Below are positions 49,071-50,237 of a stretch of DNA of 55,053 nt, piece after piece. The stretch covers positions 1-55,053 of the forward strand of contig VGUA01000007.1 in assembly GCA_016874535.1 (NCBI GenBank). Direction: 5' to 3'. Source of the stretch: Gammaproteobacteria bacterium. GTDB lineage: Bacteria; Pseudomonadota; Gammaproteobacteria; Ga0077536. A program made the position numbers and the translations under genes. The notes under the pieces were generated by a model. That model did not search any database, was not told the origin of the DNA, and saw only the letters and a program-made list of their open reading frames with translations. Every line of letters starts with the position of its first letter. The stretch's first letter is position 1.

Positions 49071-50237
49071 ATGAAGTTCAAGGTTATCTCCGTCCTCTCG
49101 CTGTGTGGCGTTCTGCTCCAGGGCTGTGCGACCAACCGCCTGCCCACGGCAGCCGATCTGCCCTCCGTGGGCTCGCTACCCTCTGTCGGCTCGCTGCCGT
49201 TCGTGCACAAGATTGATGTTCAGCAGGGCAATGTCATCACCCAGGACATGATTGCCCAGCTGCAGCTCGGCATGGACAAGAAGAAGGTCAATTTCGTGAT
49301 GGGCTCACCCATCATCATGGACACCTTTCATTCCAACCGCTGGGACTATCTCTACACCATCAGTGAACGTGGGGGACGCCCCAAGCGCCGCCGTATCACC
49401 CTGTACTTCGAGAACGAAGTGCTGGTTCGCGTGGAGGGTGACGTGAAGGCGGCGGAAGGCCGGATTGTGGTGGACACCCGCCAAGACATGACGGTGGATG
49501 TACCCAAGCCCGAGAAAAAAGGCGTGGTGGGTACCATCGTCAATACCATTCCGTTCGTCGGTGAGGAGAAGCCCAAGGTCAGGAAGCCGGCCAAGACGCC
49601 GGTTGACGACAGCGCCCCTCCGGGGGCGGATCGGGTTCCGGCCAAACGGCAAATCACGCCGGTGGAACGCGCCGCCCTCGAAGAACAGGGTGGTCCCGGG
49701 ATCTTGTCAAAGCTGAAGGGAGCTGTGCCCTTCACCGGCTCGAGCGCCCCCGGGGAAGCGCCCGTCATCGAGGCCGATGAGGGGGATGAGGTTGAAGAAG
49801 TTGTCGACGAGACAGTGACCGAGCTTGAAGAGTCGGTGCCCGAAGAGGAAACGCCGGAAGAAGAGTCTGACGGTCCGGGGCTGTTCGATAAGATTACCGG
49901 CGCACTGCCCTTCGTGGACGAGGAAGATGCCGAGCCGGAGGAAGACACCACGGAGGAAATGTCTGAAGTCCGGAGCGCTCCTGCGGACGAGGAGCCGGAG
50001 GAGAAGGACGACGAGAGCGAAGCCTGGGATTGGGAATCACGTTACGACGATGACAGAGTGATCTCCGCGCCCCCCCCCGGCGCCCCGACACCCATGCCGC
50101 TGGAGGATCGTCTTTCCGAGGAGGCCTACGAGGATGAAGAGGTTTCCGGACAGGACGCGGCGGACGATGAGGATGAGCAAGACGAAGACGGGGAAGACGA
50201 ACCCGGTTTCTTCAAACGCCTTTTCGGAAGCGACTGA
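49071..50237 (+). CDS. bamE: BamE outer-membrane assembly lipoprotein with long acidic C-terminal extension
   Basis: A 388-aa lipoprotein: signal peptide 1-18, lipobox LLQGC with C19, then a small SLPSVG repeat (31-45). The BamE fold follows (46-125: IDVQQGNVITQDMIAQLQLGM, the NRWDYLYTI turn and LYFENEVLVRVEGD). BamE supports BamA/BamD in beta-barrel insertion and normally ends at 110-180 residues. Here about 260 further residues follow, mostly Asp/Glu/Pro. A hydrophobic module recurs at 151-164 (GVVGTIVNTIPFVG), 209-223 (PGILSKLKGAVPFTG), 269-282 (PGLFDKITGALPFV) and, shortened, at the C-terminus (PGFFKRLFGSD). The ribosome-binding site is weak. Divergent from fur, as expected. Confidence 0.9.
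   Translation: MKFKVISVLSLCGVLLQGCATNRLPTAADLPSVGSLPSVGSLPFVHKIDVQQGNVITQDMIAQLQLGMDKKKVNFVMGSPIIMDTFHSNRWDYLYTISERGGRPKRRRITLYFENEVLVRVEGDVKAAEGRIVVDTRQDMTVDVPKPEKKGVVGTIVNTIPFVGEEKPKVRKPAKTPVDDSAPPGADRVPAKRQITPVERAALEEQGGPGILSKLKGAVPFTGSSAPGEAPVIEADEGDEVEEVVDETVTELEESVPEEETPEEESDGPGLFDKITGALPFVDEEDAEPEEDTTEEMSEVRSAPADEEPEEKDDESEAWDWESRYDDDRVISAPPPGAPTPMPLEDRLSEEAYEDEEVSGQDAADDEDEQDEDGEDEPGFFKRLFGSD

Follow-up and report, generated by a model that had tools for sequence, protein, structure and literature searches.

Conserved hydrophobic modules in the long acidic tail of a gammaproteobacterial BamE lipoprotein

What BamC and BamE contribute to outer-membrane biogenesis is a long-standing question that has been addressed mostly in E. 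coli, whose BamE, to our knowledge, lacks a long modular tail of the kind described here. The bamE gene at 49071..50237 (forward strand, as for all features below) of the window, meaning the whole stretch of 55,053 nucleotides that was analysed, encodes a lipoprotein of 388 amino acids, the sole BamE of its genome, with a long acidic C-terminal tail in which a hydrophobic module recurs, and raises the question of what such a tail might do.

The BamE gene and its tail

The lipoprotein signal peptide (49071..49127), read from the sequence, runs through the lipobox cysteine Cys19 (LLQGC19-A20), which is invariant among 30 aligned relatives; as the +2 position carries no Asp, the Lol rule predicts sorting to the outer membrane. 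The core domain (PF04355, 49227..49436) spans residues 53-122 and matches the Pfam BamE family with an E-value of 1.5e-22 (79.6 bits; curated cut-off 23.2). Against the NCBIfam equivalog PRK11548 for E. coli-type BamE the protein scored 42.2 bits, below the cut-off of 93, a shortfall that is due to divergence from the enterobacterial type and not from BamE as such. Known BamE (SmpA, OmlA) proteins share with it the domain, the lipobox and the fur-bamE-rnfH-ratA-smpB neighbourhood; the closest solved relatives are the BamE chains of PDB entries 9pxg and 7jrk, whose alignment with this protein ends at residue 146. In the window, the genes around bamE are presumably hrcA, nadK, recN, fur, bamE, rnfH, ratA and smpB, as named from ORF translations, and such surroundings are usual for bamE. 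A scan for promoters and terminators gave no signal exceeding chance.

The tail comprises residues 146-388, i.e. 243 residues, with 76 D/E (31%) and 22 K/R, and AF2 predicts it to be largely disordered apart from short helices; the first-pass annotation, which had described a long acidic tail following a normal BamE fold, was thus correct on this point. For length comparison, the first-ranked BamE match was taken from each of 114 genomes from across the class. Counted stop to stop, the open frames of the two genus members among them, at 432 and 440 codons, exceeded all others; the next had 358 codons and most of the other first-ranked frames 100-260 codons, so that the tail is, as initially proposed, far longer than usual. 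Among PDB entries, the 9pxg BamE chain (176 aa) runs about 45 residues beyond the aligned core, and BamE chains of 113 aa match to residue 104, with no room for a 243-residue tail of four modules. Searches of the literature accessible without subscription on C-terminal extensions or tails of BamE turned up no account of these motifs.

Modules of the tail and their conservation

Four modules, M1 to M4, were delineated. M1 (KKGVVGTIVNTIPFVGEE, 49515..49568), with the motif GVVGTIVNTIPF at residues 151-162, is kept in nearly the entire family. M2 (GPGILSKLKGAVPFTG, 49692..49739; motif GILSKLKGAVPF, residues 210-221) and M3 (GPGLFDKITGALPFVD, 49872..49919; motif GLFDKITGALPF, residues 270-281) are found in the genus only. 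N-terminal of M2 lies a genus-conserved segment, TPVERAALEEQ (49656..49688), helical according to the AF2 model and delimited from the genus alignment, with TPxERAALEE at residues 196-205; a Pro-rich element (VISAPPPGAPTPMPLEDRL, 50058..50114) between M3 and M4 is partly conserved and reads APGEGVxVPPDAP in other genera. M4 (EPGFFKRLFGSD, 50199..50234) is a short C-terminal copy, GFFKRLFG (GFFKRLF at residues 379-385), resembling the membrane-targeting sequence of MinD. AF2 places short helices of low confidence at M1 (152-159), M3 (271-276) and M4 (380-385), with M2 non-helical. M1-M3 follow the pattern G-phi-phi-x-K/R-phi-x-x-x-phi-P-F, with T and I at the K/R-phi positions in M1 of this protein; M4 forms a separate subtype, GFFxRLFG, without PF. 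The three PF-modules compare with a mean of 0.003 when the tail is shuffled 5000 times with its composition preserved; no shuffle reached three, and the M4 pattern turned up in 14 of the 5000, comparisons that overstate significance somewhat because the patterns were picked with the sequences already seen. The first-pass count of three modules plus a shortened fourth was thereby confirmed.

All four modules are present in each of the six species of the genus, where mean pairwise column identity is 0.73 for the core, 0.58 for the modules and 0.23 for the linkers; none of 242 circular shifts of the module mask gave a contrast as large, a figure that is descriptive since the mask was drawn with the alignment in view. 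Retention in relatives, which the first-pass annotation had named as the test of its proposal, is therefore borne out. That the tail is merely of low complexity and the modules incidental, as the freely varying linkers might suggest, is hardly credible to us in the face of the shuffled tails and of a conservation that tracks the modules. M4 had further been described as lying at the very end of the protein; this is true of this species and its closest relative, while the other four genus members continue for about 12-30 residues beyond it.

At the level of the family (30 sequences from 9 genera), Pro161 and Phe162 of M1 and Arg383 of M4 are at least 90% conserved. The M1 pattern is matched by 30 of 31 family proteins, one of these with SL in place of PF, an M4-type motif occurs in most of the 31, and M1 and M4 are retained family-wide despite varying tail length and linkers. 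M2 and M3, being confined to the genus and similar to M1, look like internal duplications of the latter. A search of the DNA for direct repeats returned nothing beyond acid-rich codons and a single 22-nt pair, with the modules absent; a recent DNA duplication of the modules was therefore rejected, and any such duplication would be old. Modules have also multiplied independently in other lineages, with two terminal modules each in loci L038 and L033/L035 and three copies in the BamE of L024, which belongs to another family.

The motif in other BamE tails, BamC and the proteome

Among the 18 BamE tails class-wide that reach 50 residues, 15 contain a G-phi-phi-x-[K/R]-phi module, against 1.1 expected from shuffles, as counted with a loose regular expression in loci that are the best-scoring 30 per family and not a random draw. 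The BamE proteins of Methylotenera relatives, for example, carry KGLMDKLKFW close to the core and FFDRMLEKIGF C-terminally. In Pseudomonas BamE tails (e.g. L079, L085, L093) another acidic segment, PGSxxxxIQxxVD, is conserved, with PVPTPEPL after it.

A similar signature is found in a BamC loop that belongs to the second helix-grip domain, where it occurs in 25 of 28 proteins under the likewise loose expression (0.57 expected) and in 21 of 28 under a stricter pattern (0.03 expected). In the BamC of this genome the second helix-grip domain contains KRGMLNKLKFWG, and its loop, KRGMLNKLKFWGNEDE (contig C17, L129), bears the same signature; class-wide, the loop is mostly KKxGFFSKLAFWxxDE-like. Among structures, the BamC (PF06804) chains 9pxg_C and 9cmw_C have a loop with this signature (KPGFFSRLFGG; KPGLFKRLLGKG), and BamC chains of enterobacterial type align only as far as the loop. 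In BamC the motif is single-copy and forms part of a loop within a folded domain, whereas this BamE has it repeatedly along a disordered tail; its occurrence in both proteins could reflect shared function or convergence.

The loose pattern is frequent in proteins at large, with 70 matches in the 29,000 residues of the window's ORFs, while the strict pattern is rare, with three matches in the same ORFs, M4 among them. A proteome-wide motif was rejected, as the strict patterns, searched at the DNA level, matched only BamE M2, M3 and M4 and three other places: a core segment of DnaE-like type, the C-terminal end of an RRM protein and a reading frame that is probably non-coding. The RRM RNA-binding protein (L127, C9:50061-50083), presumably cytoplasmic, ends in GGIKGFFKKIFG, which is also similar to the MinD targeting sequence.

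Membrane anchoring and its alternatives

The C-terminal membrane-targeting sequence of MinD belongs to a class of transplantable lipid-binding helices; it is amphipathic, has the pattern G-F-[LF]-x-R-L-F-G and works only when present in at least two copies. As no protein of this genome (189 contigs) reached the family cut-off for MinD, the P. aeruginosa protein was used as yardstick, whose C-terminus, KKGFLQRLFGG (PDB 6riq), M4 closely resembles. The targeting helix has weak affinity and requires two or more copies (review PMC6803595), a single E. coli copy conferring negligible membrane binding and regulation (PMC6158289), which fits the multiplied modules of BamE. MinD differs in being cytoplasmic and ATP-switched, whereas the BamE motif is periplasmic and its putative membrane binding is read from sequence. 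The tail windows with the highest hydrophobicity and hydrophobic moment fall in M1-M3, with moments that lie within the MinD-helix range or higher; shuffling within modules gave p values of 0.06-0.56 for the moment, and 0.38 for the MinD control, in a test that has no power at such length.

We give about even chances to the reading that the protein is an ordinary single-copy BamE with a disordered, acidic tail, in which M1-M4 would serve as weak, multivalent in-plane membrane anchors steadying BamE and the BAM complex at the periplasmic face of the outer membrane. We infer membrane binding, the membrane concerned and the effect on BAM as follows. M1, a few residues past the last BamE strand, would touch the leaflet, and M2-M4, on flexible, negatively charged linkers, would bind to and release from that same leaflet; each module would be weak singly, and jointly they would press BamE against the membrane and orient it, carrying BamD and POTRA-5 of BamA along. 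Alternatively, the modules may perturb the leaflet beside the barrel. Of the first-pass proposal, the idea of amphipathic modules kept by selection within an acidic disordered linker and acting multivalently is supported; the targets it had named, Bam subunits, chaperones or peptidoglycan enzymes, find no support in the present data, and MinD-type membrane-targeting helices are the better match to the sequence, although docking on a protein may still apply.

The strongest objections to membrane anchoring are the invariant Pro-Phe, which is unusual for helices that bind lipids and suggests that the contact is more specific, and the acidic linkers and some acidic flanks (EDEPGFFKRLFGSD), which oppose the binding of anionic lipids; both leave room for docking on BamD/BamA or SurA. 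The differing segment of Pseudomonas BamE means, in addition, that the role of the tail may differ between lineages. Docking of the modules on BAM itself, on BamD, on the POTRA domains of BamA or within BamE-BamE dimers, with the tail wrapping the complex or cross-linking adjacent complexes in the manner of the N-terminal lasso of BamC on BamD, is possible, if doubtful: the motif is closer to free membrane-targeting helices than to any Bam interface known to us, and a tail replacing BamC was rejected, BamC being present here and in 34 of the 36 genomes of the family, so that the tail is no substitute for it. Yet the PF of M1-M3 is more specific than lipid binding requires, M1 directly adjoins the BamE fold, BamE and BamC, with their similar motif, both contact BamD, and BamC-BamE contacts have been reported (review PMC13067283).

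Recruitment of SurA, by docking of hydrophobic-Pro-Phe to its parvulin domains and a resulting rise in local SurA near BAM, we consider improbable. The three copies of phi-P-F would suit it, and AF2 and HDX studies have been cited in favour of a contact between BamE and the second PPIase domain of SurA; the proline is, however, absent from M4, from the BamC loop and from most class-wide versions, and the contact is unseen in cryo-EM structures of BAM with SurA (both in review PMC13067283). More improbable still is a trans-envelope or cell-wall tether, with the modules near the C-terminus either entering the inner membrane or docking on a peptidoglycan enzyme and so connecting BAM to the inner side. 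An extended, disordered chain of 243 residues could, by our estimate, cross the periplasm, and in three of the six genus members M4 is immediately preceded by basic residues (KKR/KKK). Against this, M4 of the present protein has acidic flanks, M1 adjoins the core, shorter family tails with the same M1 and M4 could reach less far, and the domain search found no peptidoglycan-binding domain.

With less than an even chance, and taking both parts together, the BamE tails and the BamC loop of most non-enteric Gammaproteobacteria may share one periplasmic membrane-targeting module, and BAM would thus possess a second, multivalent lipid grip beside the barrel, absent in E. coli BamE and fourfold here. 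Occurring as it does in both the BamE tail and the BamC loop of most relatives sampled, the motif offers a concrete, mutable handle on the roles of the two proteins, and lipid binding by it, if true, would point to BAM lipoproteins acting on the membrane beside the barrel.
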